From contig NZ_JAEQMU010000003.1 of NCBI RefSeq assembly GCF_017908035.1, positions 62,001-126,000 on the forward strand: DNA of 64,000 bases, given 5' to 3'. This stretch comes from Sphingobacterium tabacisoli (GTDB lineage: Bacteria > Bacteroidota > Bacteroidia > Sphingobacteriales > Sphingobacteriaceae). A program made the translations under genes and the position numbers. Shown here piece after piece: positions 1 through 26,829 of this stretch (its first letter is position 1; each line of letters begins with the position of its first letter). The notes under the pieces are model-generated. The model ran no database searches and had not been told where the DNA came from. It saw only the letters and a program-made list of their open reading frames with translations.

Positions 1-965
1 TTTACATTTAAATCCGAATAATTGACCATCCCTGTCAACACCAATGTAATCAGTACATACAACACCGCACATATAATCAAACAGTAGATCATTGCTTTTG
101 GTAGATCCCGTTGTGGATCTTTACACTCTTCGGCCGTAGTAGATATCGAATCAAAACCAATAAATGCAAAGAAAACCGCGGCTATACCGCTCAAAACCCC
201 TCCCATCCCATTCGGAGCGAATGGTGTCCAGTTCTCCGGTTTGATAAAAAATGCTCCACCTATGATGACAGCTATGATTATCCCTATTTTAATCATGACC
301 ATAATATTACTGGCGCGTTGCGATTCTTTTATCCCAATGTAGACCAGCCATGTCACCAATACGGTAATTAAACCCGCTGGCAGATCAAAAACAATCGGCA
401 GATCACCAATCTTTGGAGCAGTGTTATAAGCTTCAAGTGCAATTTTATCTATTCCAGACAGTTTATCTGCACCAACGAGTAGCATCTTTTCGTGCGCTTC
501 GAGTGCATATCCAGGTGCCATCGTCAACCATTTGGGGATATAGATACCGAAGCCTTCACACATTGAAACAAAATACTGTGACCAAGAAATGGCAACTACC
601 ATATTCGACACTGCATACTCCAAGACCAATGCCCAACCGATGATCCAAGCGAACAACTCCCCAAAAGCGACATAAGCATAGGTATATGCCGAACCTGAAA
701 CCGGAACTGTACTCGCAAACTGGGCATAGGACAGCGCAGTAAACACACAGGCAAAAGCAACAAAGACAAATAAAAGAGATACTGCAGGGCCGCCATTATA
801 AGCTGCCAGTCCAATGGTACTAAAAATACCAGCACCTACTATCGCTGCAATACCTAGAGAGACTAAATCCCGAACACCCAAAATTTTTGCTAGACCGGAG
901 CCATGGGTCTGAGAGTCGATTAGTATTTGGTCAACACTTTTCTTCCTGAAAAGTTGATTTTTCAT
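1..965 (-). CDS. APC-family amino acid permease, C-terminus cut off by window edge
   Basis: This is an integral inner-membrane amino acid transporter of the APC superfamily, closest to the cationic amino acid (CAT/YfnA) type. The translation starts MKNQLFRKKSVDQIL at 965 and runs off the left edge after about 321 residues. A short cytoplasmic N-terminus is followed by the first helix with the family motif GIAAIVGAGIF, then a series of hydrophobic helices. The visible end has the helix with FFAFIGFDSISTTAEE, typical of CAT transporters, followed by the conserved KDPQRDLPKAM loop. The start follows an AT-rich leader with no clear ribosome binding site. The substrate cannot be told from the sequence. 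The last few helices lie outside the window. Confidence 0.9.
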   Translation of the reverse strand, partial: MKNQLFRKKSVDQILIDSQTHGSGLAKILGVRDLVSLGIAAIVGAGIFSTIGLAAYNGGPAVSLLFVFVAFACVFTALSYAQFASTVPVSGSAYTYAYVAFGELFAWIIGWALVLEYAVSNMVVAISWSQYFVSMCEGFGIYIPKWLTMAPGYALEAHEKMLLVGADKLSGIDKIALEAYNTAPKIGDLPIVFDLPAGLITVLVTWLVYIGIKESQRASNIMVMIKIGIIIAVIIGGAFFIKPENWTPFAPNGMGGVLSGIAAVFFAFIGFDSISTTAEECKDPQRDLPKAMIYCLIICAVLYVLITLVLTGMVNYSDLNV

Positions 966-1138
966 ATGTATATAATTTGATTTAAAATGGTCATGAACTA
1001 GTTCCTATCGTCTTCGACGAGCTCCTTGTATCGGTTTAATCGGACGGGAATATCCAATTTACGTTTATTCACTCCAAAAGGATATATCATATTTTAAAGT
1101 TTAAATAAGCTAAAAGAAGTGGCTCACTGTACCGTACC

Positions 1139-7735: not shown

Positions 7736-9055
7736 TTAATGTGCCAATACTTCGGGCAGTTCTTCCACATCCACCTCTCCATTCTCCGAAATAGAGATGA
7801 AACGTACCGGAACAATTTCATTCACCAAAAGTGGATCATATAGTGTACGCACTTTGACATAGTTTTTGGAGAAGCCATGCATATATCCGTCTTTGATATC
7901 CGACTCGAACAGTACCTCGCCAACCGCATTAAGATTTTCTTCGTAAAAAGCACGACGTTTTTTCTCAGACAGAATATGTAGCATTTTACTACGGTCTGAG
8001 CGTTGCGCTCCAGGTACCGCACCTTCCATCTGTGCTGCAATCGTATTCTCTCGCTCCGAATAGGTAAAGACGTGTAGATAGGAGATATCCATTTCATTCA
8101 AGAAATTGTACGTATCTATAAAATCCTCACGACTCTCTCCTGGGAAACCTACAATCACATCTACACCGATACAACTATTAGGCATCAATGTTTTAATCTT
8201 TGCTACCCTTTCAGCGTACAGCTCACGCTTATAGCGCCTGCGCATCTGGGCCAATATCTTATTGCTTCCCGATTGCAACGGCATATGGAAATGAGGTACA
8301 AATCGTTTAGATTGTGCGACAAATTCGATTACCTCATTGGCCAATAGATTCGGCTCTATAGAAGAAATACGGATACGGTCTATCCCTTCGACTTCGTCCA
8401 AAGCCTTAACCAAATCGAGGAACTTATCCTGCCGCTTACCGTCACGGATTCCAAAATCTCCGATATTCACCCCCGTCAATACGATCTCCTTCACTCCTGA
8501 AGCAGCTATTTCCTCTGCTTGCTTCACTATATCTTCTATCTTACCGGAACGGGATGCACCACGCGCCAATGGTATCGTACAGAATGTACACGAATAGTCA
8601 CATCCATCCTGCACCTTCAGAAACGTACGCGTACGATCCCCGATAGAAAACGCAGATACAAACTGATTGGTCTCATCAATAGGTCCATTATGAATAATGG
8701 CCTTTTCCTGTTTGGTCAGATCATTGATATGTTCAATAATATTAAACTTTTCAGCTGCTCCAAGGACCATATCTACACCAGGGATTTCCGAGATTTCCTT
8801 TGGCTTCAACTGTGCATAGCATCCTACAATAGTAATATAAGCATTTGGCGAATGTTTAAGCGCTTCCTTCACCACCTTACGACACTTCTTATCTGCATGA
8901 TCCGTTACAGAACAGGTGTTAATAACATAAACATCTGCCTGCGAATTAAAAGGAGTGGTCTCGTAACCCGCATCCTTAAAAATACGACCAATAGAAGATG
9001 TCTCTGAAAAATTCAGCTTACATCCCAACGTGTAAAAAGCAACTTTTTTATTCAT
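7736..9055 (-). CDS. mtaB: MiaB-family tRNA methylthiotransferase, MtaB type
   Basis: A radical-SAM enzyme that adds a methylthio group to N6-threonylcarbamoyladenosine at position 37 of tRNAs. From the ATG at 9055 it is 439 residues and begins MNKKVAFYTLGCKLNFSET, the family N-terminus. An upstream in-frame ATG at 9106 gives an unlikely extension. Cluster-binding Cys residues of the N-terminal domain are in TLGCKLN, NTCSVT and VGCYAQ. The radical-SAM CxxxCxxC motif is DGCDYSCTFC. A TRAM-like RNA-binding region forms the C-terminal 60 residues. The GCKLN start and the overall pattern fit MtaB better than MiaB or RimO. Confidence 0.92.
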   Translation of the reverse strand: MNKKVAFYTLGCKLNFSETSSIGRIFKDAGYETTPFNSQADVYVINTCSVTDHADKKCRKVVKEALKHSPNAYITIVGCYAQLKPKEISEIPGVDMVLGAAEKFNIIEHINDLTKQEKAIIHNGPIDETNQFVSAFSIGDRTRTFLKVQDGCDYSCTFCTIPLARGASRSGKIEDIVKQAEEIAASGVKEIVLTGVNIGDFGIRDGKRQDKFLDLVKALDEVEGIDRIRISSIEPNLLANEVIEFVAQSKRFVPHFHMPLQSGSNKILAQMRRRYKRELYAERVAKIKTLMPNSCIGVDVIVGFPGESREDFIDTYNFLNEMDISYLHVFTYSERENTIAAQMEGAVPGAQRSDRSKMLHILSEKKRRAFYEENLNAVGEVLFESDIKDGYMHGFSKNYVKVRTLYDPLLVNEIVPVRFISISENGEVDVEELPEVLAH

Positions 9056-9214
9056 ATCCATATAACTCGACCATTTTGTAGGCCATTTGGAAAACCCAAT
9101 CCGCAAAAATACACATTTTTATAGACATGAGATTTCAGATTTTATATTTCATTATTTGAGGCAAAGATGTGATATGTTCATGACACAAAATTTCAGCTTT
9201 CACAGTAATTTTCT

Positions 9215-10098: not shown

Positions 10099-10151
10099 TG
10101 AATATTTCGAAGTGCTGACTTTTTTAATTTTTACTTTTTAATTTTTACTTC

Positions 10152-10666: not shown

Positions 10667-11254
10667 AGTGAACAGTCCTTCACTTTCAGTGATCACTTCC
10701 CGCCGATTGGTGATTACTCTTAAGTGACTGGTGATTACTTTTCAGCGACGAGTGAACACTTATTTACTGTAGGTGAACACAATTGCGCACGATCTGTCTG
10801 TATTTTTATAAAAAGTAACCAGCATTAGCTAACATGTGATCATATTTTTCTAAAAAGTGAACACTTTTTAACACACAGTGACCACTTCTTATAGAATAGT
10901 AGTCACTTGATAACAATAGATGAACACTTTTTAGAAAAATGTAGTCACTTCCTAGTGATAAGGACCTGCATTACAGCAACAAGTGATCACCATTCTGCTA
11001 TAAGTAACTAGTCTTTAGCAAAAAGAAATCAATTAATAACAAACATAAACCCCTTTCCCCAAAATAGTGATAGCTTTATCAGACTCTGTGTTCACTTTTC
11101 ACCAAAGAGTAGATACAAGTCATCAACATGTGATCAATCGATGCAATAAAGTGAACACTCTTCATCAGCAACAAACCACTAAGTGCTACACAGTAATCAC
11201 ATTGTTAGAAGAAGGGATCACTGATTCCGAAGAACCAATCACTTTTTAGCACTT
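10667..11254. repeat. Array of 28 exactly phased 21-bp units with a degenerate palindromic core
   Basis: Reading from 10667 in steps of 21, every unit begins with a variant of AGTGAWCACT, and the register holds for 28 units with no insertion or deletion. By my count the first ten positions show A in 19 units, G in 23, T in 22, G in 17 (A in the other 11), A in 22, then a mixed position, C in 21 and A in 24, with CT mostly closing the core. The next 11 bases differ from unit to unit but tend to start T-rich and end A-rich, so each unit approaches AAAAGTGAWCACTTTT. Units 2, 5, 10, 16 and 24 are clear examples; 7, 15, 18, 19 and 22 are worn. All six frames contain stops. The array fills almost the whole gap between folA and the terminator of the convergent downstream gene. 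It is not a CRISPR: the unit is too short and no cas gene is near. Function unknown. Confidence 0.9.
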
Positions 11255-14613: not shown

Positions 14614-15897
14614 TTAAACTTGAGCAATCAGTTTATCTACTGCAATCCGTGTAATCTCAACGTCTTCTTTATTTGTAGCATAGGCGACATACAAATAGCC
14701 TTTCCAGACAAAGCTTCCTGGATAGCTATAGCCCTCAGTTTTACTTATTCCATCATAGCGTCTTGGTTGCGGAACATCGCGTAGCAAAAATGACTTGTTA
14801 AATAGCTTACCGTTTTTACTTAATGTAACCGTCAAGGGAACACGTCTTCTCGTAGGGACTGGATTATTGACAAAATAGGAGACAGAACCACTGAGATTTC
14901 CAGCACATTGCATGGAATCTGAATCAGGGATATTAGTCAACGTCGGTTTCGACCATGTCGCCCCATTATCCTGACTTACCGCGGCCAACAATTTCCATGT
15001 ACGTGGTGCCGCATCAAAATACAAATCCCGAAAAAGTATAACCAGCTCTCCTTCCAATCGTCCAAAAAAACTAGCCTCGACAGCGCGTGCAACTTTTTCA
15101 TTGCTATTGACATTATAATCAGGCAAGTCTGGTAATAGAGCTTGCTTCCAATCAGAAAGTCCATCCTTCGAATCAGAATACATAATCCGCGTTCCCCGAA
15201 CCTCTTTAAAAGCACCTGTACCCAAACCATGGCATATCATAATATAACGCCCATTAGGCAGTCTTCTCGCGCTCTCACTAGGGGCAGCGTTCCGGATCAA
15301 TACTTTTGGCTCTGTCCAAGCTATCCCGTCAGTAGAAGAACAATACTCTGTAATTGATGTTTTATTAGCTTTATCTCCAGCAATCAATAGACAGTGCAAT
15401 TGATTCCCGTCTGTAAGCCAGCCTCCACTTGCTCTATTCGCAGGTCCAACCTGTATCGGTTTTTCCCAGGTCGTCCCGTTGGACGAGTAACTGTAGTACA
15501 CATAAGAGATTTCGCTCGTTTCATGTAAGGGATGCCCCACCCATGTCGCGTACAACTTACCCTTGAACTCCACAAGCTGCGGATGGTTATTAAACTTCAT
15601 ATCCAACGGCTGATCAGGACGGAACACCATAATCTGCTCTGTGCCATCCAAATACTGCAACCCTAAATCATCCTTTTTACTTTGGTTAAATAACCCATTG
15701 CTGATACTCACCTGAGGATCCGTTTCAACAGGTGTTGGTTCAGGTATAAAGGTCTCTTCTTCCTCACTGCCTCCTTTAGTACAGGACATTAAGGCACGAC
15801 TAGATGTCAGTGCAAATGAGGAAAGAACAATCTGCCGGATAAATTTCCGCCTTCCTTCTCTATGTTTACCGTCTATTAAGCTTTTTAGTATATTCAT
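14614..15897 (-). CDS. Sialidase-like (Asp-box beta-propeller) lipoprotein
   Basis: A 427-residue exported protein at the distal end of the glycan locus. The N-terminus has a Tat-like RRKFIRQ motif, a hydrophobic stretch and then a lipobox-like Cys in ALMSCTKGG, so it is probably a lipoprotein. The rest is a beta-propeller with Asp-boxes SSNGTTW, STDGIAW and SQDNGATW, as in BNR/sialidase-fold enzymes. I do not see the FRIP motif that normally carries a catalytic Arg in exo-sialidases, so activity on sialic acid is uncertain. It starts 14 bp after the SGNH gene in the same direction. It may bind or cleave a terminal sugar of the target glycan. Confidence 0.8.
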   Translation of the reverse strand: MNILKSLIDGKHREGRRKFIRQIVLSSFALTSSRALMSCTKGGSEEEETFIPEPTPVETDPQVSISNGLFNQSKKDDLGLQYLDGTEQIMVFRPDQPLDMKFNNHPQLVEFKGKLYATWVGHPLHETSEISYVYYSYSSNGTTWEKPIQVGPANRASGGWLTDGNQLHCLLIAGDKANKTSITEYCSSTDGIAWTEPKVLIRNAAPSESARRLPNGRYIMICHGLGTGAFKEVRGTRIMYSDSKDGLSDWKQALLPDLPDYNVNSNEKVARAVEASFFGRLEGELVILFRDLYFDAAPRTWKLLAAVSQDNGATWSKPTLTNIPDSDSMQCAGNLSGSVSYFVNNPVPTRRRVPLTVTLSKNGKLFNKSFLLRDVPQPRRYDGISKTEGYSYPGSFVWKGYLYVAYATNKEDVEITRIAVDKLIAQV

Positions 15898-15910
15898 ATT
15901 TATAGGTTGG

Positions 15911-17026
15911 TTATTTTTTTAGTGCAGTAATCCTGTTTATTAATCGCAGATAGGAGGCCTCTGCATATTGTGTCATACCTAGATCGGAAGGATGAACTCC
16001 ATCGATAGTACTATTAACGCCTAAATTAATCTCTTCTGCTTTCAAAACGTAGACATTACTATCTTTACCTTCTACCTGGTCCTTTATAAATCTGTTAAAA
16101 TTACGGTTTACCCGCTCATAATCTTTTTGCGATGCATCATTGACTAATTCAATTGTTGCGATAGCATGCTCGGTAAAGATTATTGGAGTGGTGGGATTTT
16201 CCATTCTTAGCCTGTTCAATGCATATACCAGTCGTTGATAAACATCTTCATCTTTAAATGCGACAAGATTTGGTAAACAATCAATAATATAGATTGAAGC
16301 TTTCTTTTTCGCAATCAGATCGACCAGTTCTTTCTCCAGCCTTCCATTTCCGGAGAATCCAAGATTAATAATGGGACTACGAGTCTCTCGGCCCAGAATA
16401 GCGCTCCACGACAGTCCAGCCCGGGATGCAGAGGCCCCTTGGGCGATTGAAGTTCCATAAATAATAATCGGCGCTTCGGGATTAGACTTCCATATGATAT
16501 TCGCGTTATGCCTAATTCCAAATTGAAAATCAGAGATATTATTGTACAAAGGAAAGTACAAACGATAAAACAATACCTTATCATTACCTAAACCATCAAA
16601 TAGCAACTGCATCTTATCCTTTTCAAAGGAAACATATTTTCCTTTCACCCAAATCCATTTACCCGAGGCCATCTTGGCATACATATCCATTCCTGACACG
16701 CCTATCGAAGACATATTCTTCAAGGATTCTTTGCCTCCGTATTTATACTCCAGCACAAGGCTATCACTGTTGGTTGTAAAATCAACATAAATCCCGGAAG
16801 AGTTTCTGGAAAGTCGCCATACATCCTGCCTTACGGAATCCTTATAAATTCCGGGAAGCCGATCGAACCTATTTACTACGTCATTTCCCCACCCCTGCCC
16901 TTGTACAACGACAGTTTTGTCAGCCTGAAAATCAATCCATCGAAAGTTTGGATATTCCTGCCCATTTAGTAGGGAAACCCAACAAGAAAAACTATAAAGT
17001 AAAATAAAAAACCGTTTATTCATCAT
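15911..17026 (-). CDS. Secreted SGNH/GDSL esterase with N-terminal beta-rich domain
   Basis: A 371-residue exported hydrolase. A signal peptide (residues 1-22) precedes an N-terminal domain of about 150 residues (WIDFQADKTVVVQGQGWGND onward) of the kind that precedes SGNH domains in glycan loci. Block I of the hydrolase domain is IIYGTSIAQGASASRAG near residue 190. The Gly/Asn block is NLGFSGNGRLEKE, and the catalytic Asp/His pair is DGVHPSDLG near the C-terminus. In this locus it probably removes acetyl or other acyl groups from the substrate, alongside the sialate O-acetylesterase-like protein. It is co-oriented with the rest of the locus. Confidence 0.85.
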   Translation of the reverse strand: MMNKRFFILLYSFSCWVSLLNGQEYPNFRWIDFQADKTVVVQGQGWGNDVVNRFDRLPGIYKDSVRQDVWRLSRNSSGIYVDFTTNSDSLVLEYKYGGKESLKNMSSIGVSGMDMYAKMASGKWIWVKGKYVSFEKDKMQLLFDGLGNDKVLFYRLYFPLYNNISDFQFGIRHNANIIWKSNPEAPIIIYGTSIAQGASASRAGLSWSAILGRETRSPIINLGFSGNGRLEKELVDLIAKKKASIYIIDCLPNLVAFKDEDVYQRLVYALNRLRMENPTTPIIFTEHAIATIELVNDASQKDYERVNRNFNRFIKDQVEGKDSNVYVLKAEEINLGVNSTIDGVHPSDLGMTQYAEASYLRLINRITALKK

Positions 17027-17086
17027 ATTCTATGTTTTGCTATCCCTATACTACATCATAAATAGTATAGGGATAAAATGACTTAT

Positions 17087-18475
17087 CTACTTCGAAGAAT
17101 CCCTAACGCAACGACACGAATACCCTGTCGATTTAGAAGCTCCCTGTAAATAATTAGTAGTACCTGAATGGTAGGAATAATGCAGGATAAAAACCCGGGC
17201 ATTATTAGCAGAACTAGATGTTGCTGTCCATAGACCTGCATATTGACCGCTACCGGAAAATGCACCGTCACCTCCGCCTGCGGTACCTGCATTACGATGC
17301 CGTACTGCTGCCATACTAAACCCACTCGCATTATTTGTTGCAACGGCGTTATTACCGATAGCACCAACAGTACTACTGCCCGTCCAATTATCTGCGATTC
17401 CACTGTTATTATCAGCCAGTTCTTTTAGAAAGCTCGTACCACCTCCATACGTAGTCTTCACATAGTCGAACAGCTCTATTAAATCACTTTCTGTTGGAAC
17501 ACGCCACCCTTCAGGACATAACCTCCCTGTATTGACCACACCAAATGTGTAGTATATAAACGGTGTGTTGATCCGTGTGCTATATCCACCAATAGCATCA
17601 AAGGTGATGGCATTCCATCCCGCATTAGTACTTGCATTCGCAATAGCGATATTATCTTTATATCTGGTCGTCTGTAAGTTTTTTAACATCCACCATCGAT
17701 TCCCAAAACGCTTAGTTGGATAGCTATTCCCTTCCACGTCGGTGACGGTACCTGTTGTTGGTTCTGCTCCTTTCTGTGTAATCACAATCCGAATTTCAGA
17801 ATCACCACTCTGTATAGTCACTAATGCCAAACGTTCTTCCTCAGAAATATTTTGCTGCAACATAAACTGCAAGGTATGCGTTCCCTTCCCTGCCTCGTAA
17901 CGAGAAAGACGGATCCAACTCGGAACACCTGTCAAATCAGCATCCTCCACTCTAGCATTCCACGGACCGCTCGTGGTAAAAGTAACAGGAAGGGCATTTT
18001 CTATATTACCTTCAATGGTTTGACTCAGTAATGTTTCATCATCCACAACGATATCAGGCCCATCCTGCGGAAATTCTCCATTTTCCAAAGTCGCTTCTTG
18101 AGTGATACGCACAAGCAACTTAGAATTACCACTCGAGAATGTAATGACTGCGGACCGACGTTGCCCGGTACGATTGCGTTTCAAATCTATCCGCACGATA
18201 TGGCTTCCTTCAATACCATGGTCTGAAGAGGTGGAAATCCAATTTGGCTCATTCGAATCAGAAGTCTGCGCAATACTAGAGGTCCATTCCCCCGTTGTTG
18301 CAAAGAACACTTCATCTGTCCCTTGTATATCATCAGCATAGACTATTTGTTCTAGCGATTGTCCTTCTTTAGCGACTAAATCGACATCCTTGTCTTTTTT
18401 ACACGCATAAAAAAAGCAGAGCAGTACACTTAAAATAGCATAACTACATATTCCTGTTTTTACTCTCATATTCAT
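17087..18475 (-). CDS. Surface lipoprotein with BACON domains and a FISUMP domain
   Basis: A 462-residue protein with a lipoprotein signal (Cys in FFYACKKDKD). Two BACON-type immunoglobulin-like domains follow, at about residues 45-130 and 145-235, each ending in a VRITQE/RIVITQKG strand and with the conserved Trp segments FATTGEWTSS and FTTSGPWNAR. The C-terminal half is a Fibrobacter succinogenes major paralogous (FISUMP) domain: VTDVEGNSYPTKRFGNRWWMLKNL, then GRLCPEGWRVPTESDL and GYSCRCVRD at the end. Such proteins are thought to bind glycans or mucin-like surfaces. Four 90-bp tandem repeats end exactly at its start codon, so its leader is unusual. Confidence 0.88.
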   Translation of the reverse strand: MNMRVKTGICSYAILSVLLCFFYACKKDKDVDLVAKEGQSLEQIVYADDIQGTDEVFFATTGEWTSSIAQTSDSNEPNWISTSSDHGIEGSHIVRIDLKRNRTGQRRSAVITFSSGNSKLLVRITQEATLENGEFPQDGPDIVVDDETLLSQTIEGNIENALPVTFTTSGPWNARVEDADLTGVPSWIRLSRYEAGKGTHTLQFMLQQNISEEERLALVTIQSGDSEIRIVITQKGAEPTTGTVTDVEGNSYPTKRFGNRWWMLKNLQTTRYKDNIAIANASTNAGWNAITFDAIGGYSTRINTPFIYYTFGVVNTGRLCPEGWRVPTESDLIELFDYVKTTYGGGTSFLKELADNNSGIADNWTGSSTVGAIGNNAVATNNASGFSMAAVRHRNAGTAGGGDGAFSGSGQYAGLWTATSSSANNARVFILHYSYHSGTTNYLQGASKSTGYSCRCVRDSSK

Positions 18476-18480
18476 ATGTA

Positions 18481-18840
18481 AATAATTTGTCTTTTAACGG
18501 TCATATGGAATATCCAAAGTATTTTCACTCGTCTTTGTGCAGCCTGTACTACATGGATATTTCATATGTAAATAATTTGTCTTTTAACGGTCATATGGAA
18601 TATCCAAAGTATTTTCACTCGTCTTTGTGCAGCCTGTACTACATGGATATTTCATATGTAAATAAGTTGTCTTTTAACGGCCATATGGAATATCCAAAGT
18701 ATTTTCACTCGTCTTTGTGCAGCCTGTACTACATGGATATTTCATATGTAAATAATTTGTCTTTTAACGGCCATATGGAATATCCAAAGTATTTTCATTC
18801 GTCTTTGTGCAGCCTGTACTACATGGATATTTCATATGTA
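18481..18840. repeat. Four near-identical 90-bp tandem repeats inside the glycan operon
   Basis: Copies occupy 18481-18570, 18571-18660, 18661-18750 and 18751-18840, with the last 10 bases of another unit just before (18471-18480) and the first 7 or so just after. Only a few substitutions separate the copies: T/C at the GGTCATATGG site, one T-to-G in copy 3 and one C-to-T in copy 4. This points to recent amplification. The unit edge coincides with the start region of the BACON/FISUMP gene, so that gene's own leader matches the end of the unit. As 90 is a multiple of 3, the plus strand stays open through the array, but that frame has no support as a gene. Confidence 0.95.
18494..18835 (-). other. 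Four tandem 23-codon mini-ORFs, one per 90-bp repeat
   Basis: On the transcribed minus strand each repeat unit holds one complete small ORF: 18764-18835, 18674-18745, 18584-18655 and 18494-18565. Each starts with ATG inside CATATGAAAT, begins MKYPCSTGC, ends IPYDR or IPYGR, and stops at TAA. An 18-base AT-rich spacer separates each stop from the next ATG. That spacer has the same CAAATTATTTACAT leader as the real gene that follows. The copies differ at the protein level by Asp/Gly and Ser/Asn. They could act as upstream ORFs affecting translation of the BACON/FISUMP gene, or be by-products of a duplicated leader. Translation is unproven. Confidence 0.4.
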
Positions 18841-18923
18841 AATAATTACTTGGTGATCCGCCAGCCGGCGAATCGGTTACTATTTCATGGATACGCTATT
18901 TGTGAGTTTATCTTATTTCATAC

Positions 18924-21296
18924 TTATAGTACTGTATCCTTTTTTTTCAGAATCCAAACTTCGGCTATCTGAGATATCGTCTGTCCTTCCTCTGCTTTCC
19001 ATGTGAGGTTGATCCCCCCATCTAATGTTAGCTTTTTCGGAATTTCAAACTCGTATATACGTGATTTGTCTGGGACCTGGTAGTCGTGCAACGTGTGTCC
19101 ATCCACTACCAATTGGATTTTCTGGTTCTTGAACACACCTCCATAAGCTATACGAATAATATAGGAACTACCTTTGTCCAGGTTATCGTACCTAACAGTG
19201 ACCGGTGTGTCGTATAAACCCGAAATTTGGCGTCTTTGGGCCAATGGTATTTTAGCTTCCGTACTTCCAAAGTAAACACGCGGCGTTTTAAGAGTGCCCG
19301 GATCGGTAGCCCAATTTTCTAAACCCTGAATTCGCATTAATGATTCCGGAGAGCCTAGATTATCATAATACTCCTGACTGCCGACGGAGGTACGGTTTAC
19401 AATTTTACCCAATGCCTCCCTTTGCTCTATTTCGGACGACATACTTTCAATTTTACTGAATTGATCCAGTAGCCATTCCTTATTATTTAATGGAAAATCA
19501 ATATTTCGAGAACTCGACATGGGCTGAATTTCCATAAGCCACCGATAATTATCTCCAATATTCAACGTTCCTGTTTTAGCATTGGCGCTATAGATTTGAT
19601 GACACTTATTTTTATAACTGTTAAATAATTCATCCACATTACGTCTATGGAGAAAACGCTTTGCATTACTGATTACGGTCTCGATTCCAAGCGCTTTATT
19701 TTTAGTTAGTTCGTCCAGCGCCAGGGCTTCCGACTCTGTTTCATAGACCAGCCTTACACTCTGATACATATCATAATATGCCTTGAACAAGAGCATTTGA
19801 AATCTTGGATTATCCAACGTTCCTTTACCTACTGTTTTCTCCAGATCCTGCCAAAGCTTCAGGGTCTGACTAATAGTCGACGAATTAGTTATAAGTGGAC
19901 CATCAAAGTTCTTTTCTAAGCCTTCTACCCCCCTTACAAATAGATCTACATCTTGTATACCTAGGAATAACCGTGCGTAATCTTGTAATGTCACCCGTAC
20001 ATCTGTAGAGGCATCCCATTCCTGGTCGCTCCAAATAAACTTATTCAAATCATCATAATTTGCTTCGGAATAAGTGATACTTCCTGCGTTTAAATCGCTG
20101 TACAGATTATGGATGTGCTTTTGCATGGCGGGCAACGGATTAATACTGGATCTTCCATAAGTCATAGCAAAAGCCATATCCAGATTAAGAACTGGATACT
20201 GTGAGTTCATCGGATGACAAATATCCGGTAGAGTTACCATCTGGACTGAAGGATGCAGATATGAACGCATTTCGAACATCGGTACCTTGCCCCAAGGCGC
20301 AAAAATAAAACCACCCAGCCATTCCTTTCTCTCATTGGTTTTATGGACAAAAGTATCTACCCATTCCTGTGTCATATGAAAAGATTGCATCGACACCCAG
20401 ATTTTTGCTTTAGGCTGTATTTCATTCAACAATCCTTTCAGAACGTCAAGGTAGCCAAAATACTCCGCTGGCTTCAGGGTCCCGGGATCTCCCCCAGGAA
20501 CAAATATCGCATCAACATGAGGCAGTTTACCCAAACGTTCTCTTCTACGTTCCAGTTGCAATTTCAATCCCTCCTCTGTCGTATAGTAACCATTTGCTTT
20601 GTTGTTGTTATCGCATGGATCATACAGCCAGACTTCCATACCGTATTTTTTGCTTGCCGCTATCTGTGATGCTGTGATATCTGTAGAAAGCTGCACGACA
20701 TTCATACCAAATAAAGCCAGATCACGAACATACTGCTCAAAGTAAGCTATCCCCCAAGGTTCGTTTACTCCTTTTTTATGGATATGCAGCCCTTGAGAAC
20801 GTATCGTTTTGCTGGGAGTAGACGAAATCGCCTTTAACAAAGCTAAATCGACATTCTTATCCTTCATCTGTATCTTACGAAGTACATGCCCCACACCATA
20901 TAGACAGCCTCTACTATCATGTCCGATAATAAGTAATGTATTTCGCTTGTCGTTTTTTTTTACCTTAAAGCCGTCTTTACCGATCTTTGGTAAAGCATCT
21001 AATTCGTGGTTGCTTCCTTCTACTCTTGCTTTTGCCGATTTTTCTGTACCGACAAAAATCGTTAGCACTCCCTTCTTGAATGACTCAGGCTTCGACACCA
21101 TCCGAATAGCTACAGTGGACCTTTTTGCAATCTCTTCAGAAAGTACTGTTGCACTTTGCTGAATTAAGGCATCCTGATTATCAAGAACAACAATGTCTAT
21201 TCCCGTATAGGAGGGCTCTTGTCCATGGCTACGAACAATTGTGCCTAAAATTCCTAGAAAGAGCACAACTATCTTTCTCCAATTTTTCATATGCAC
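18924..21296 (-). CDS. Large secreted glycoside-hydrolase-like enzyme with zincin-like N-terminal domain
   Basis: A 790-residue exported protein with a signal peptide (residues 1-25). Residues 30-150 look like the small alpha/beta zincin-like domain that precedes the catalytic barrel in GH20, GH67 and related hydrolases (IVVLDNQDALIQQSATVLSEEIAKR and LLIIGHDSRGCLYGVGHVLRKI). Residues 165-480 fit a TIM barrel (RSQGLHIHKKGVNEPWGIAYFEQYVRDLALFGMNVVQL, then IFVPGGDPGTL and GGFIFAPWGKVP). A helical region and a C-terminal beta-rich domain that may bind carbohydrate follow. I cannot assign a GH family or the catalytic acids. N-acetylhexosaminidase-like or glucuronidase-like activity is possible in this locus. 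Confidence 0.7.
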   Translation of the reverse strand: MHMKNWRKIVVLFLGILGTIVRSHGQEPSYTGIDIVVLDNQDALIQQSATVLSEEIAKRSTVAIRMVSKPESFKKGVLTIFVGTEKSAKARVEGSNHELDALPKIGKDGFKVKKNDKRNTLLIIGHDSRGCLYGVGHVLRKIQMKDKNVDLALLKAISSTPSKTIRSQGLHIHKKGVNEPWGIAYFEQYVRDLALFGMNVVQLSTDITASQIAASKKYGMEVWLYDPCDNNNKANGYYTTEEGLKLQLERRRERLGKLPHVDAIFVPGGDPGTLKPAEYFGYLDVLKGLLNEIQPKAKIWVSMQSFHMTQEWVDTFVHKTNERKEWLGGFIFAPWGKVPMFEMRSYLHPSVQMVTLPDICHPMNSQYPVLNLDMAFAMTYGRSSINPLPAMQKHIHNLYSDLNAGSITYSEANYDDLNKFIWSDQEWDASTDVRVTLQDYARLFLGIQDVDLFVRGVEGLEKNFDGPLITNSSTISQTLKLWQDLEKTVGKGTLDNPRFQMLLFKAYYDMYQSVRLVYETESEALALDELTKNKALGIETVISNAKRFLHRRNVDELFNSYKNKCHQIYSANAKTGTLNIGDNYRWLMEIQPMSSSRNIDFPLNNKEWLLDQFSKIESMSSEIEQREALGKIVNRTSVGSQEYYDNLGSPESLMRIQGLENWATDPGTLKTPRVYFGSTEAKIPLAQRRQISGLYDTPVTVRYDNLDKGSSYIIRIAYGGVFKNQKIQLVVDGHTLHDYQVPDKSRIYEFEIPKKLTLDGGINLTWKAEEGQTISQIAEVWILKKKDTVL

Positions 21297-21302
21297 CTTT
21301 GG

Positions 21303-22391
21303 TTAATTACTAGGTGCCCATACGAGACTTCTAAACGTCTGTCCTGTATTGGACTTTGCCAACACCTTGGATGCTCCCATATTAATATCTTCATTATGAC
21401 CAGACATGTCCGCTATCTCATACAAAACACCATCTCCACCTCGCGTATTGGCGCTTGAGATTATATATAGCTTAGCTTTGCCATTTTCTTCTTTAGCCTC
21501 GACACCGGTCAGATCTTTCAAGTCAGTATACTCACCATTGAAAACCCACTTATTACCTACCTGCGAATACTTAAATATCCCTTCCTGAAATGTCATTACA
21601 TAAGCGACATTCTTTGCCGGCTGGTCTTTCCCGGCCAGGTTAACGATTATGAAACCCGTCCCATTTTTAAAGCGGGGATCTCCTGTTATATTCGCAAACT
21701 TAGTTCCCGGAGTTGTACTATTTTTCGCACTGACACGGTAGAGACGTGCCCCGTCCCCCATGAATAAATCGCCTGCATAAAATCGAATCTGCCGAATACT
21801 CATTCCTCCTATGTGTGTACCTTGATTAGTTCCCTTAGTCAAATGGAAAAGGCCTCCATTTCCTGCGACACCTCCCCCGGACATCCATACATCTGTCCCA
21901 TCTATAGAAGCCGCGCTACGGTATGCATTTTCGCTAAATGGATTGTTTGCCGTAGTTTCAGAATTCACTTTGCCATCAATATCGACAAGAGCAACAACTC
22001 TATTCACTACTGCCGATGACTTATTGACAACAGTCTCCCCTAGTGGGGCATCATAACCCGGCACCACGATATACTTTCCGTTATCAGAAAGACTGATCCA
22101 TCCCGAAAGGATGTCTCTTCCGATAGCTGTAATTCGTCTATTTGCACCGCTTTTGTCTGAAGGTAATGCGATAGATTGTACCAGATCAGCTTTATCAACT
22201 GAAAGCTTATATTCGTCCAGGTAAATCGGACAGGCTTTATCACTATTGATATCACCACTGGAATTGGCATCTCCAATCCTATATATTACCAAGTTGCCCT
22301 GGGTGATTTTCTTTGCTTGTGCTAAAACTATATTAGTTGAAATAAGTATCGCTGAAGCGATTCCTAGAGTCGTTAAAAAACATTTTTTCAT
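21303..22391 (-). CDS. Secreted protein of unknown function, probably a beta-propeller
   Basis: A 362-residue protein with a signal peptide ending near ALA/QAKK. The mature part begins ITQGNLVIYRIGD and is made of short beta-strand segments with repeated hydrophobic-Gly patterns such as GWISLSDNGKYIVVPGYD, GTDVWMSGGGVAGNGGLFHLTKG and LFMGDGARLYRV. These suggest a propeller fold. I recognise no catalytic motif and no named family. The gene sits within the glycan operon, 7 bp from the start region of the hydrolase gene and 26 bp after the SUMF1/sialidase gene. Because of that it is probably exported together with its neighbours and acts on or binds the same substrate. Confidence 0.6.
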   Translation of the reverse strand: MKKCFLTTLGIASAILISTNIVLAQAKKITQGNLVIYRIGDANSSGDINSDKACPIYLDEYKLSVDKADLVQSIALPSDKSGANRRITAIGRDILSGWISLSDNGKYIVVPGYDAPLGETVVNKSSAVVNRVVALVDIDGKVNSETTANNPFSENAYRSAASIDGTDVWMSGGGVAGNGGLFHLTKGTNQGTHIGGMSIRQIRFYAGDLFMGDGARLYRVSAKNSTTPGTKFANITGDPRFKNGTGFIIVNLAGKDQPAKNVAYVMTFQEGIFKYSQVGNKWVFNGEYTDLKDLTGVEAKEENGKAKLYIISSANTRGGDGVLYEIADMSGHNEDINMGASKVLAKSNTGQTFRSLVWAPSN

Positions 22392-22416
22392 GATAATTTG
22401 GGTTTATTAGATTTAA

Positions 22417-24417
22417 TTATTGTGTTAGCCATTGTAAGTTAAAACGGTAGTGCAACGCACTACTAAAGAGATGGATAATATTATCCGGTGTCTGTGTCAA
22501 CGCGAGGTAGCCCTTAGGTTCTGCATGATATTGATCCATCTTAAAATGTCCCGTAAATGCTCCACCATAGAGGTAACGTTCTTTACCATCGGTTATGAGC
22601 TTCTTGATAGGCCATGTCTTCCCTTCATCGTAGGATACTGCCGCATACATTCCGTAACCGATATAGCTTCCTTCCGGCCCCATAAACGGCATTCCCTGTC
22701 GATGTTTTACGTCAATTCTGCCATCTGTAAATGAAATCAGCAATAGTGCTCCTTCATTCAACCTTTTAAGAATTAAGCGTTGTCCGCTTGATATAGGAGG
22801 AAACTCGCTCGCGGCATATCTCCAAGTCCCGCCAAGATCATCCGAGATACTCATCGGCATATAGTTCTTACCGTCCTTCTTGATATTGTCATCGCGTCCT
22901 AATGCCAGTAGTCTTCCATCTTTCAACTCAACAACTCCTGCATGGATACCAGCGATTTTATTCCCTGTTCCATGCTCGCTGTATTGAGGAATTAGATCTC
23001 GATTTTTATCCGATGAAGACCAGGTCTTGCCCTTGTCTTTGGAGATATGTAAAATAGACCCTCCCCGTACCGTTGGCGTCGCGTCACAGACCTGTACTAG
23101 ATAACCTTTGGCTGTCTTAAACATTCCAGCGATAACCTGATTACCGACCTCATGCTCAGGATTTACAAAAACGGGACTTGTCCATGTAAAACCGTTATCC
23201 CTGCTCTCCCGAAGTACAAGAGCTAAATTCTTCCATGTTCCTGCGGCTTCGACACCATTCGTATGATAAATCACGTCTGCTTCCTGGTCATAAAAAAGGG
23301 AAGAGCCTGTCATGTTCCTATCTGGCACATTAAAAAATAGAGACGGTGAGGTCCAACTAGTAGCACCCTCCTTCAATCTGCTTGACAGGACTGTCATTTC
23401 GCGTCCCTTTTCATCTTCTGTAGAAAACCAAACAGCTAATAGATCACCATTTGGTGTCCAGGTGACCGCTGGGCAGTGGTTATGATAAAACAGTCCTTTT
23501 TGTATACCTAATGAATCTGTTTTCACAAAAGAGATAGGTTCCTCAAAGACCGGCTTCTGCATTATACTCCAATTCTTCTTTGGAGCATTGCTCCGCGTAT
23601 TCACGCTCTGACTTTCTTGAAAGGTAAGCTTAGTATCTGTCCTCACTTCTACCACTCGGAATCCCGTAAACATCGTTCTATCTTCAGGTATAAGTGCACT
23701 CCTATTTGCTGAACGAAGAAATTCAACAGGTGTATTATGACTTCCCCCCCGTGTGACACGATATACGCCCTCTTTATAGCCCCCGGGATCTAATGCCACA
23801 TTATCACTATAAGCGCCATAATAATCTAGACACCATTCTTCTACATTGCCATGCATATCGTATATCCCCCACTGATTGGGTGCAGATTGCTTAACATGGA
23901 GAGAAACAACCTTCGGGTCCCAACTTACCACTTGATTTTTTTCCATTGCTTTCGGCAGTACCCGATCGCCTATTGCATAAGGGCTCATGGTACCAGCTCT
24001 GCATACATACTCCCATTCCGCCTCTGTCGGAAGGCGGTAGTTCTTACCTTCTTTCTTAGACAGCCACTCGCAAAAAGCAACCGCATCGTGGTAACTCACA
24101 TAGATAACAGCTTCATCATCCTCATTAGAAAAGCCATTTTTACCCCGTAAAGCCCGATGCGAAGCTTGAAAGGTCTCGTACTGCTTGTTCGTGATTTCGG
24201 TAGCTGCTATACGAAACGCCCCCGTCAGTTGTACCTTATGGGCAGGCGATTCGTCATAGTCCTTACCGTAACCGGCACTCCCCATCAAAAAATATCCTGG
24301 GCTGATATCGACCATTTCCAAACCAATGGAATTGACATGCTGTGCATATACAAATTGCCCCGAATGGAAAACTAAAACAATACCAAATAACAGCTTCATT
24401 AATTTATTCTTTCCCAT
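22417..24417 (-). CDS. SUMF1-like domain fused to a sialidase-like Asp-box domain
   Basis: A 666-residue exported protein with two halves. After the signal peptide, residues 30-255 are a SUMF1/FGE-type domain: MVDISPGYFLMGS, ATEITNKQYE, RLPTEAEWEYVCRAG, MHGNVEEWCLDYYG and RVTRGGSHNTP ... GFRVVEV. The two active-site cysteines of true formylglycine-generating enzymes, expected just after RGGS, are absent (HNTPVEFLRSANRS instead). It is therefore unlikely to activate sulfatases, and no sulfatase gene lies nearby. Residues 290-660 form a BNR/sialidase-fold propeller with Asp-boxes SRDNGFTW, SKDKGKTW, SDDLGGTW and SYDEGKTW. The SUMF1-like part may act as a lectin-like binding module for the propeller enzyme. 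Confidence 0.85.
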   Translation of the reverse strand: MGKNKLMKLLFGIVLVFHSGQFVYAQHVNSIGLEMVDISPGYFLMGSAGYGKDYDESPAHKVQLTGAFRIAATEITNKQYETFQASHRALRGKNGFSNEDDEAVIYVSYHDAVAFCEWLSKKEGKNYRLPTEAEWEYVCRAGTMSPYAIGDRVLPKAMEKNQVVSWDPKVVSLHVKQSAPNQWGIYDMHGNVEEWCLDYYGAYSDNVALDPGGYKEGVYRVTRGGSHNTPVEFLRSANRSALIPEDRTMFTGFRVVEVRTDTKLTFQESQSVNTRSNAPKKNWSIMQKPVFEEPISFVKTDSLGIQKGLFYHNHCPAVTWTPNGDLLAVWFSTEDEKGREMTVLSSRLKEGATSWTSPSLFFNVPDRNMTGSSLFYDQEADVIYHTNGVEAAGTWKNLALVLRESRDNGFTWTSPVFVNPEHEVGNQVIAGMFKTAKGYLVQVCDATPTVRGGSILHISKDKGKTWSSSDKNRDLIPQYSEHGTGNKIAGIHAGVVELKDGRLLALGRDDNIKKDGKNYMPMSISDDLGGTWRYAASEFPPISSGQRLILKRLNEGALLLISFTDGRIDVKHRQGMPFMGPEGSYIGYGMYAAVSYDEGKTWPIKKLITDGKERYLYGGAFTGHFKMDQYHAEPKGYLALTQTPDNIIHLFSSALHYRFNLQWLTQ

Positions 24418-24419
24418 AA

Positions 24420-25862
24420 CTAACGATCTGTTTTAAACGGTGAAGCCGGTAGTCCCTCCTTATTAATAAGATTACTCGTTTCCGGATTGTCCTGCCAAGC
24501 ATATCTTACGCTAACAGGACTTGAGACCTCTGTGCTTGAGACTTCTACTTTATCCTTTACAATTACGGCAGTCGCTGGTACAAAGTTGCCATCGGCTCCA
24601 GCGATATAAAATCCAGATAAAGCCTCATTATTACGCGTCGAAAGGCCTGATCCTAAATGATCAAAAGATAATCTAGCCTTATTTCCAACAATTTTTAGCT
24701 CCTTATAAATCGGCCCTGAGTAAACTACTTGCTTATTGCCGTAGGCGATATATTGTGCTAATAATGCTAACCTTTGTCCCACAGTCCATTTGTTTTTGGG
24801 ATGTATATCTTTAGCTTCACCAACATCTATAGCAACGGCCATTCCTGAGTTGGGAATAGTCTTCCAATTGTTCAATTGTGCATCTCTCAATTCGGCCCAC
24901 TCACTTTTTACCATTTTTGGATTGTATGCCTTATAATTGGCCAATTGGACAAACAAAAAGGGGATATTTCCCTGTCCGATTTTTTTGCGCCAATTTTCTA
25001 CCAATGCAGGCATAAGGTGTTTATATTCTTCTGCTTTACTGACATTTGACTCACCTTGGTACCAGATTACGCCCTTCATCCCATAATTGACAACGGGAGC
25101 TATCATTCCATTATATAACATAATGGGTTCATGGTGTACCTGGAGTTCTTTCTTCGCTGTAAGCACTTTTACTTTCTCCGGATCCTGTATACTATCAAAG
25201 CGCGCTAAATAATGGGGAAATTCGGTTAATGCCTCCTGACTCGCCCAGGACTCTGCTGTGGCACCTCCCCAACTAGCTGAGATCAAACCGATGGGAACAT
25301 TGAGCTTTTGGTGCAGTTCCTTTGCGAAAAAATAAGCTACAGCCGAATAAGCGGGCAACTGTTCGGGCGTTGCTTTACGCCAGCCTATAGATAAGATGTC
25401 GTCTTCAGGGGTATTAGTTCCTTTACGCCCTACTTCTATATGTCTGATCGCAGTAAAGTTATCTTCTGGTTGCAGAGAATATGCTGGCTCGATTTGCTTC
25501 ATCCTCCAATTCATATTAGACTGTCCTGAGCACAACCAAACGTCACCGATGTAGATCTCGCTAATAGTATGCTCAATGTCAATCCCCTTTACAGTCATCT
25601 GATAAGGGCCTCCTGCTTCTGCAGACTCCAATTGAATCGACCAACGTTTGCTCTGATCAGCCTGGGTTTTATACTTTTTACCCTTAAAACTCACTTCAAC
25701 AATCTCCAGGGGATCAGCCCATCCCCATATAGGAATCTTAACATTACGCTGCAACACCATTCCATCTCCCACTAGGCGGGGGAGCTTGACTTTAGAATAA
25801 CCAATAGAAATATTTGCTGTTACTATAACCAACAAAAGATTAAATAATAATAGTTTCTTCAT
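24420..25862 (-). CDS. Sialate O-acetylesterase-family protein
   Basis: A 480-residue secreted SGNH-type esterase. A signal peptide (MKKLLLFNLLLVIVTANISIGYS) leads into a beta-rich N-terminal region (KLPRLVGDGMVLQRNVKIPIWGWADPLE), a hallmark of bacterial sialate O-acetylesterases. The nucleophilic Ser is in VWLCSGQSNMNWRM near residue 116. GVIWYQGESN is the second conserved block, and a Asp-x-x-His candidate is KDIHPKNK near residue 360. Family members remove O-acetyl groups from sialic acids, though some act on acetylated xylan or other glycans. It starts 7 bp after the DUF5017-like gene and ends 2 bp before the SUMF1/sialidase gene, which indicates one transcript. Confidence 0.88.
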   Translation of the reverse strand: MKKLLLFNLLLVIVTANISIGYSKVKLPRLVGDGMVLQRNVKIPIWGWADPLEIVEVSFKGKKYKTQADQSKRWSIQLESAEAGGPYQMTVKGIDIEHTISEIYIGDVWLCSGQSNMNWRMKQIEPAYSLQPEDNFTAIRHIEVGRKGTNTPEDDILSIGWRKATPEQLPAYSAVAYFFAKELHQKLNVPIGLISASWGGATAESWASQEALTEFPHYLARFDSIQDPEKVKVLTAKKELQVHHEPIMLYNGMIAPVVNYGMKGVIWYQGESNVSKAEEYKHLMPALVENWRKKIGQGNIPFLFVQLANYKAYNPKMVKSEWAELRDAQLNNWKTIPNSGMAVAIDVGEAKDIHPKNKWTVGQRLALLAQYIAYGNKQVVYSGPIYKELKIVGNKARLSFDHLGSGLSTRNNEALSGFYIAGADGNFVPATAVIVKDKVEVSSTEVSSPVSVRYAWQDNPETSNLINKEGLPASPFKTDR

Positions 25863-25869
25863 ATGTTAT

Positions 25870-26829
25870 CTATTTTACCACAACTTTCAATGTCCGTACA
25901 ATTTCCTGCTTGTTATCCTGGCTTTGGTTGGATGCCACGAAAGTCACATAATATGTTCCTGGATTCTCAAAAGTATAGCTGTATTCTTTTACAGGAGCCG
26001 TTGCATAGTTCTTGATCGATATTGGTTTATCAGGTCCTAATTGAAAAGGTTCTCCTAAAGTAAAGGGCTTGGATACCACCCAATGTTCTGTCTCGATATC
26101 TTCAACCTGTATCACGCCATTATCATCCGGCCCATAGAAATTACCCTGCATAGAAATCTGGCTTTTGGAAACGGTAGTCCGCGAGGGTACATGAGTCAGC
26201 GCAAAGGGGTCTACTAGTCTAAAGCCGGCATTGTTTGTATTGATGATTTCTAAATCACCGGCATCGACACTCTTGTTCTGAACTTTAAAGTTGGAAACAA
26301 CCCACCTGCTAGCATTACCATTGATACTTTGAAATTTTGTAACATAGCGAAAAGCAAAATATAGAGGCCTACCATCCTTCGATAAGGGATATAGGCTCTG
26401 CGTTCCTGAAGAAACAATACTATTTCCAGTTGCTAATGCAAACCAGTTCGTAACGTCAGTCCAAGCTGTACTCTTGATATTATCAAAATTATAATCGCCA
26501 TTAAAATCGCTTGATACGAGGATAGAAAGCTGGTCTTTTTGACTTCCTGCCGTAATCTGACTATCGAAAGACACTATATTTTCCCAGCCAGGTTCGGCAA
26601 CTCTCCCTTCTTTATGTGCATAATCAGAGAATAACTCCCCCGAGTAAAAATTAATATAATCTGCTGTAGAAGCTATTTTAAACAATACTGGTTCACCTGC
26701 ATTATACTCATCCTGACCAACCTCAACTTCAAAAGAAGGTTTTTCAATCTCCATTTCTAATCTCTTACACGAAGAAAACACGCTAAGACACACGCTTAAT
26801 CCGAAAAAGATATATTTATTTATATTCAT
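25870..26829 (-). CDS. DUF5017-like surface lipoprotein of the SusC/D system
   Basis: A 319-residue lipoprotein (Cys in VFSSCKRLEME). The first domain, residues 30-165, has the pattern FEVEVGQDEYNAGEPVLFKIASTADYINFYSGE seen in DUF5017 proteins, which sit next to SusD genes in Bacteroidota. The C-terminal 80 residues form a PKD-like or Ig-like beta domain ending in TFENPGTYYVTFVASNQSQDN. It is placed where SusE/SusF-type surface glycan-binding proteins are usually encoded, directly after susD with 12 bp between them. Binding of the target glycan at the cell surface is inferred from that position and the lipoprotein signal. Confidence 0.78.
   Translation of the reverse strand: MNINKYIFFGLSVCLSVFSSCKRLEMEIEKPSFEVEVGQDEYNAGEPVLFKIASTADYINFYSGELFSDYAHKEGRVAEPGWENIVSFDSQITAGSQKDQLSILVSSDFNGDYNFDNIKSTAWTDVTNWFALATGNSIVSSGTQSLYPLSKDGRPLYFAFRYVTKFQSINGNASRWVVSNFKVQNKSVDAGDLEIINTNNAGFRLVDPFALTHVPSRTTVSKSQISMQGNFYGPDDNGVIQVEDIETEHWVVSKPFTLGEPFQLGPDKPISIKNYATAPVKEYSYTFENPGTYYVTFVASNQSQDNKQEIVRTLKVVVK

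Follow-up and report, generated by a model that had tools for sequence, protein, structure and literature searches.

A fourfold 90-bp leader repeat in Sphingobacterium tabacisoli, probably a locally amplified member of a dispersed family of start-codon-targeting mini-elements

BOX repeats of Streptococcus pneumoniae, described together with RUP and SPRITE, are small, modular, structured, and dispersed, with nested insertions and a strain-variable number of units, and in all these respects they resemble the element presented here (PMC3049150, available portion). They differ from it in being over-represented between convergent genes, in lacking a start-codon junction as far as that portion describes them, and in having an unrelated sequence and host phylum. 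The element, which is dispersed, modular, structured, and variable in unit number, is a BOX-like small interspersed repeat, with a resemblance in kind only. REP/BIME sequences with their RAYT (Y1) transposases, including the GTAG and CGTC families, are likewise short palindromic dispersed repeats, the hairpin of which is recognized as a single strand, and our element also has the palindromic hairpin with a conserved mismatch by which they are known. REPs of the surveyed families lie mostly near gene 3′ ends, according to the available part of PMC3733652. Unlike REPs, the element is not accompanied by a Y1 gene in the Sphingobacterium genomes that hold most copies, nor does it show REP-like linkage. 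TAACTGA heptamer repeats, found in Beggiatoaceae, Cyanobacteria, and some Bacteroidetes, are direct repeats that lie in sense orientation just upstream of start codons, but they measure 7 bp and lack both a hairpin and ATG boundaries, and the part of the source available describes neither empty sites nor class-wide covariation (PMC4679880). Within the accessible text of these sources, an ATGAA junction, a start-masking hairpin, and class-wide covariation occur together in none of BOX, REP/RAYT, and TAACTGA repeats (PMC3049150, PMC3733652, PMC4679880). Miniature inverted-repeat elements (MITEs) are short, non-autonomous, and dispersed, with inverted arms, as is our element, which appears to differ in its lack of a classical target duplication and differs in having a start codon as its junction. 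Among the own-genome matches to one unit, no parent insertion sequence with the same ends and no wider-spaced pair of ends was seen. Rickettsia palindromic elements (RPEs) insert inside reading frames and are translated. They are comparable as palindromic insertions tolerated at protein-coding genes (PMC3733652, available portion), and our element would differ from them by restarting translation after itself. The literature we searched, with thin coverage of subscription papers and without preprints, yielded no published family with such start-codon insertion.

The window examined here is the whole stretch of Sphingobacterium tabacisoli DNA that was analyzed (64,000 nucleotides). A preliminary description had noted in it a fourfold 90-bp tandem array in the leader of a surface lipoprotein gene, and TRF bears this out, reporting 4.2 copies of a 90-bp unit at positions 18471-18847 with 98% matches and a score of 726. 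The array consists of four ATG-to-ATG units (18476-18835, minus strand; Table 1). Every unit carries, as described, an ATG-to-TAA mini-ORF of 23 codons, MKYPCSTGCTKT[S/N]ENTLDIPY[G/D]R, and the reported coincidence of the unit edge with the start region of the lipoprotein gene is confirmed, with the start codon directly after the array. Units 3 and 4 share one sequence; the remaining units differ at 2 of 90 positions. A palindrome module of the kind found upstream of unit 1 also stands alone at a different gene start in another locus (L150).

Table 1. Coordinates of the array, its host gene, and related features in the window
Feature	Position	Strand	Evidence
Unit 1, ATG to ACAT, gene-distal	18746..18835	-	TRF; nhmmer; CM hit G000:C10:80741-80835
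Unit 2 of array	18656..18745	-	TRF; nhmmer; covariance model
Unit 3 of array, same sequence as unit 4	18566..18655	-	TRF; nhmmer; unit comparison
Unit 4 of array; ACAT, then gene start ATGAA	18476..18565	-	TRF; nhmmer; flank reading
Host gene, BACON + Fib_succ_major (FISUMP) lipoprotein, 462 aa; start codon abuts array	17087..18475	-	ORF list; Pfam
GATTCGCCGGCTGGCGGATC palindrome module, leader AAGTAATTATTTACAT, just upstream of unit 1	18836..18880	-	Sequence
Degenerate element copy with inserted CGATTAAACCGA...TCG hairpin; ends ACAT/ATGAA, start of 321-codon ORF	about 961..1090	-	Tail-motif search, nhmmer
Weak degenerate element copy; ends ATGGAT/ATGAA, start of 439-codon ORF	9051..9143	-	nhmmer E=0.01

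The orthologous site in S. paucimobilis HER1398 (genome G009), with flanks about 99% identical, carries a single unit against the four found here; a single-copy relative, which the preliminary description had proposed to look for, thus exists, and copy number at this site differs between genomes, in line with the suggestion. Each window unit is one base off the HER1398 unit, and these star-like differences fit the recent expansion already proposed. Local duplication in the recent past is the most likely origin of the array. Neighboring modules at other loci are mostly 20 to 83% alike and are best read as separate insertions that accumulated at the new start codon; S. nematocida has one adjacent pair that is identical (L097).

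The array had also been interpreted as a phase-variation rheostat private to this locus, in which the number of 90-bp units would tune expression of the surface lipoprotein. The four-to-one difference at the orthologous site agrees with this, as does the strong folding of a 511-nt transcript segment (z = -4.5). However, the same unit sits once or twice, mostly singly, at dozens of unrelated genes, and since most adjacent pairs elsewhere are of different modules, stacking is a general property. The copy numbers, moreover, come from a site compared in two genomes only, where short-read assembly could miscount units. We regard a locus-specific rheostat as distinctly unlikely, although an effect of copy number on expression is possible. 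The preliminary observation itself is right; its reading as a local rheostat or a set of peptide genes is mostly replaced by a broader one, in which the unit is a dispersed mini-element.

Within its own genome (G000), one unit gives 48 blast matches on many contigs, a covariance model built from 40 copies gives 49 (E up to 0.01), and the tail motif alone gives 56, with 0 for the reversed control. With a DNA query, the element was found in 20 of 40 sampled relatives, mostly of the same genus, and the exact pattern occurs in 58 stretches of named genomes, nearly all Sphingobacterium and one Albibacterium. Across the class, the covariance model matched 29 of 149 genomes (19 of 99 genera), and two genomes outside Sphingobacterium (G059 and G075) hold at least 28 copies each. 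The 90-bp unit, judged by these matches, is a member of a dispersed family of hairpin elements rather than a private leader repeat. The Rfam covariance models gave no relevant match to it. Carriage by phages or plasmids was considered and rejected, as viral contigs, PLSDB, and INPHARED contained no match. In G059, several arrays are found at the ends of contigs (C42, C59, C94, C98, and C99), so that the repeats are probably broken or collapsed in short-read assemblies and their number is underestimated.

Read with their flanks, nearly all own-genome copies terminate in ...ACAT, directly before the ATG of the adjacent, same-strand gene. We counted positions in 99 distinct complete copies from Sphingobacterium, with one more from Albibacterium. 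In 79 of the 99, the copy ends at the ATG of an ORF with 50 codons or more; 14 run into another module, 2 run into short ORFs, and 4 are exceptions. The gene-start junction reads ATGAA in all 78 cases examined, against 36% (46/129) of other long-ORF gene starts in the same DNA. When gene starts and non-genic sites are pooled as ATGAA candidates, gene starts account for only 34% (85/252), and neither chance nor a bare pentamer target therefore explains the position. Part of the specificity may reflect selection rather than targeting, as ATGAA alone does not account for the preference. Of 51 sites sampled outside the genus, the majority adjoin a gene start, and about five have no clear gene start beside them. 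TAnnTTTG is a promoter motif known from Bacteroidota. It lies 4 to 31 nt upstream of the insertion point in L162, L153, and L152, which places the element within the transcribed leader there; more speculatively, promoter-proximal single-stranded DNA could be the reason for the start-codon preference.

Orthologous start regions were fetched from relatives and compared with filled sites as an empty-site test. The pairs (empty/filled) are L162/L009, L146/L040, L153 and L163/L012, L158/L011, L160 and L181/L042, L152 and L182/L043, L176/L014, and L167/L025. With a slash marking the junction, empty sites have the form native leader/ATGAA and filled sites the form native leader/ATGAA-element-ACAT/ATGAA, and the junction is equally precise across the compared pairs. 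An example is L162, where the relative has ..CATAAATTATA/ATGAAACGC and the own genome has ..CATAAATTATA/ATGAAATAC.., followed by two 90-bp units and ..TTTACAT/ATGAAACGT. Two or more relatives are empty at L012, L011, L042, and L043, while at L015 and L021 the own genome and HER1398 are filled and more distant relatives are empty; for these six loci, the outgroup pattern makes gain more economical than loss. Precise deletion could lie behind some empty sites. The foremost candidate is L040, which lies between copies of a 19-bp direct repeat. Only ATGAA appears to be repeated on insertion; leader similarity between the left and right sides over 10 bp is 6.45 against 6.22 by chance. A target duplication taking in the leader, suggested by L040 and L036, was rejected because the overall signal barely exceeds chance and is explained by nested modules that share ends.

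The element is also modular internally. Modules within modules were seen as 42 additional bp in L151 relative to L010, 27 additional bp in L148 relative to L025, and an extra ATACTC-type module in L145 relative to L015. The 42-bp module (CCGCGAAGCAGCATGCAC...GTGCATAA) occupies one fixed point in the loop, is present or absent between orthologs, and amounts to a mini-element inside a mini-element (L010/L151, L021/L157, L030, L033, L037, L038, and L043). The tail of the element swaps in a 27-bp module (CCGAGCTTGCGAGCTCAT...GATAA) and GATCCGCCAGCTGGCGGATC palindromes at L018, L022, L024, and L148. Between L022 and L144, different subtypes occupy the same start codon with closely similar flanks, a difference due to gene conversion or to independent repeated insertion.

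The hairpin opens with the ATG, which forms the beginning of the 5′ arm (ATGaAATATCC); the partner of this arm is GGATATTcCAT. From one subtype or family to another, the two arms vary in concert (ATATCC, ATACTC, ATGTCC, ATAGCC, ATAACC, ACATCC, and ACCGAC), and when copies from other genera were aligned, 11 of 15 pairs showed double changes. Covariation in this alignment scored 0.310, compared with 0.116 for shuffled and at most 0.081 for slid alignments. The alignment had been fitted to the model, which favors the structure, but both controls score far below it. Of 103 hairpins, 100 have an A.C mismatch at the fourth base. Read on the opposite DNA strand, the mismatch becomes a G.T pair, and the complementary strand accordingly folds somewhat better. 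Single units show only a moderate folding advantage over shuffles (z, -1.3 to -2.4). The hairpin, with its conserved A.C mismatch, is well supported by the covariation.

A conserved, covarying hairpin in the leader, with the start of an upstream ORF inside it and a 3′-arm CAUAUG that can pair alternatively with the CAUAUG of the gene itself, would also suit an ancient cis-regulatory RNA, riboswitch-like or a uORF attenuator, that is occasionally lost and whose array would be a set of tandem sensors. We consider this origin unlikely, given that host genes have no common function, near-identical copies lie at unrelated genes, presence varies among close relatives with gain indicated by outgroups, and Rfam holds no match. 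Regulation as a by-product of the element is possible.

The mini-ORF offers a further reading, in which the units are amplified genes for a small peptide with two cysteines, as the preliminary description had allowed. Although the 23-codon frame is open in most Sphingobacterium copies, entropy in the loop by codon position (0.375, 0.656, and 0.588) lacks a third-position excess, and the synonymous fraction is 0.265, where 0.17 to 0.25 is expected without constraint. Unit lengths of 85, 88, 89, and 91 occur, with indels that are not multiples of three; stops appear in the frame among copies; the second Cys is replaced by Tyr or Phe; and the frame reads ATG-AAA-TAG in the majority of copies sampled from other genera. 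Codon positions, indels, and the ATG-AAA-TAG copies led us to reject a coding role: a peptide product from the mini-ORF appears unlikely, and amplified peptide genes as the basis of the units are extremely improbable. In L017, L019, L020, and L023, the mini-ORF has no stop and runs in frame into the gene, which would add 30 residues if the first ATG were used; the annotated N-termini of these genes may be wrong.

We consider it highly probable that the unit is a mobile mini-element, non-autonomous and built of modules, which targets start codons, supplies a translation-initiation leader of its own, and has been locally amplified here. The compared genomes directly display insertion at a start-codon ATGAA, a constant orientation, the hairpin, stacking, and local duplication. 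The element, about 80 to 95 bp and longer with nested hairpin modules, inserts in sense orientation at the ATGAA of a start codon, and beyond ATGAA no target duplication is apparent. Once in place, it is headed by the leader and ATG native to the gene, with that ATG and the following bases serving as the 5′ hairpin arm and the 3′ arm ending in the complementary CAT. We infer that this hairpin hides the old start codon. The A/T-rich tail (..ACAAATTATATACAT) precedes the second ATGAA, now the start codon of the gene, and would act as a preformed region for initiating translation, of the kind that Bacteroidota use without a Shine-Dalgarno sequence, so that the host gene would stay expressed and the insertion be tolerated. 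Each copy regenerates ATGAA, which lets further modules stack at the same place, and recombination can duplicate or remove adjacent copies; stacking and recombination together would account for four units at the lipoprotein gene and one in the close relative.

A Y1 transposase and a reverse transcriptase were looked for in element-bearing genomes as mobilizing enzymes, and neither was supported. The fixed short target, single orientation, imperfect hairpin, and lack of a long duplication recall IS200/IS605, and a Y1 (HUH) transposase of that type, as in REP/RAYT systems, could carry the hairpin, in single-stranded form, to such a target. Y1 genes are indeed present in all six of the element-bearing genomes tested outside the genus. 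No Y1 (PF01797) gene, however, was found in the element-rich Sphingobacterium genomes G000, G009, G023, G018, and G013, while G002 has 12 Y1 matches and no element. The 24 Y1 loci searched include only one orthologous pair (two genomes) with the element within 300 bp, and this locus carries its own, different palindromes. With Y1 absent, and with the two close pairs being one orthologous locus, we rejected RAYT as the mobilizer for the genus and hold it improbable overall. The Y1 gene flanked by palindromes CCCCGACAGGGG and CCACCGATGCAATCGGTGG (L260, 570-690; L261, 450-670) is a REP/RAYT-like unit in another Bacteroidia genus. An origin as a retroelement-derived repeat was likewise rejected, since reverse transcriptase (RVT_1) is absent from several element-rich genomes (absent from G000, G023, G018, G059, G117, G111, and G121).

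Beyond the genus, we lean, with reserve, toward a class-wide set of Bacteroidota mini-elements that home to start codons, in which an enzyme or process would recognize ATGAA where translation starts, the hairpin would mask the old AUG, and a new initiation leader would be supplied at dozens of genes per genome. If so, the start codons of a large bacterial class would be a landing site for mobile DNA, a new targeting rule that poses the question of what sets a start-codon ATGAA apart from other ATGAA sites. It would also explain odd repeated leaders, miscalled N-termini (some copies being in frame into the gene), and breaks in short-read assemblies, and it would make naturally exchanged leaders available for work on how Bacteroidota initiate translation independently of a Shine-Dalgarno sequence.

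The host gene of the array lies within a minus-strand gene run (window positions 14614-26829) resembling carbohydrate catabolism, with Pfam matches that include BNR sialidase-like proteins, a GDSL esterase, a GH67-N-like protein, an FGE-sulfatase/BNR fusion, a SASA acetylesterase, and DUF5017. Further short tandem repeats, with periods of 14 and 21 bp, were reported by TRF in the window at 10121-10150, 10710-10755, and 10801-10860.
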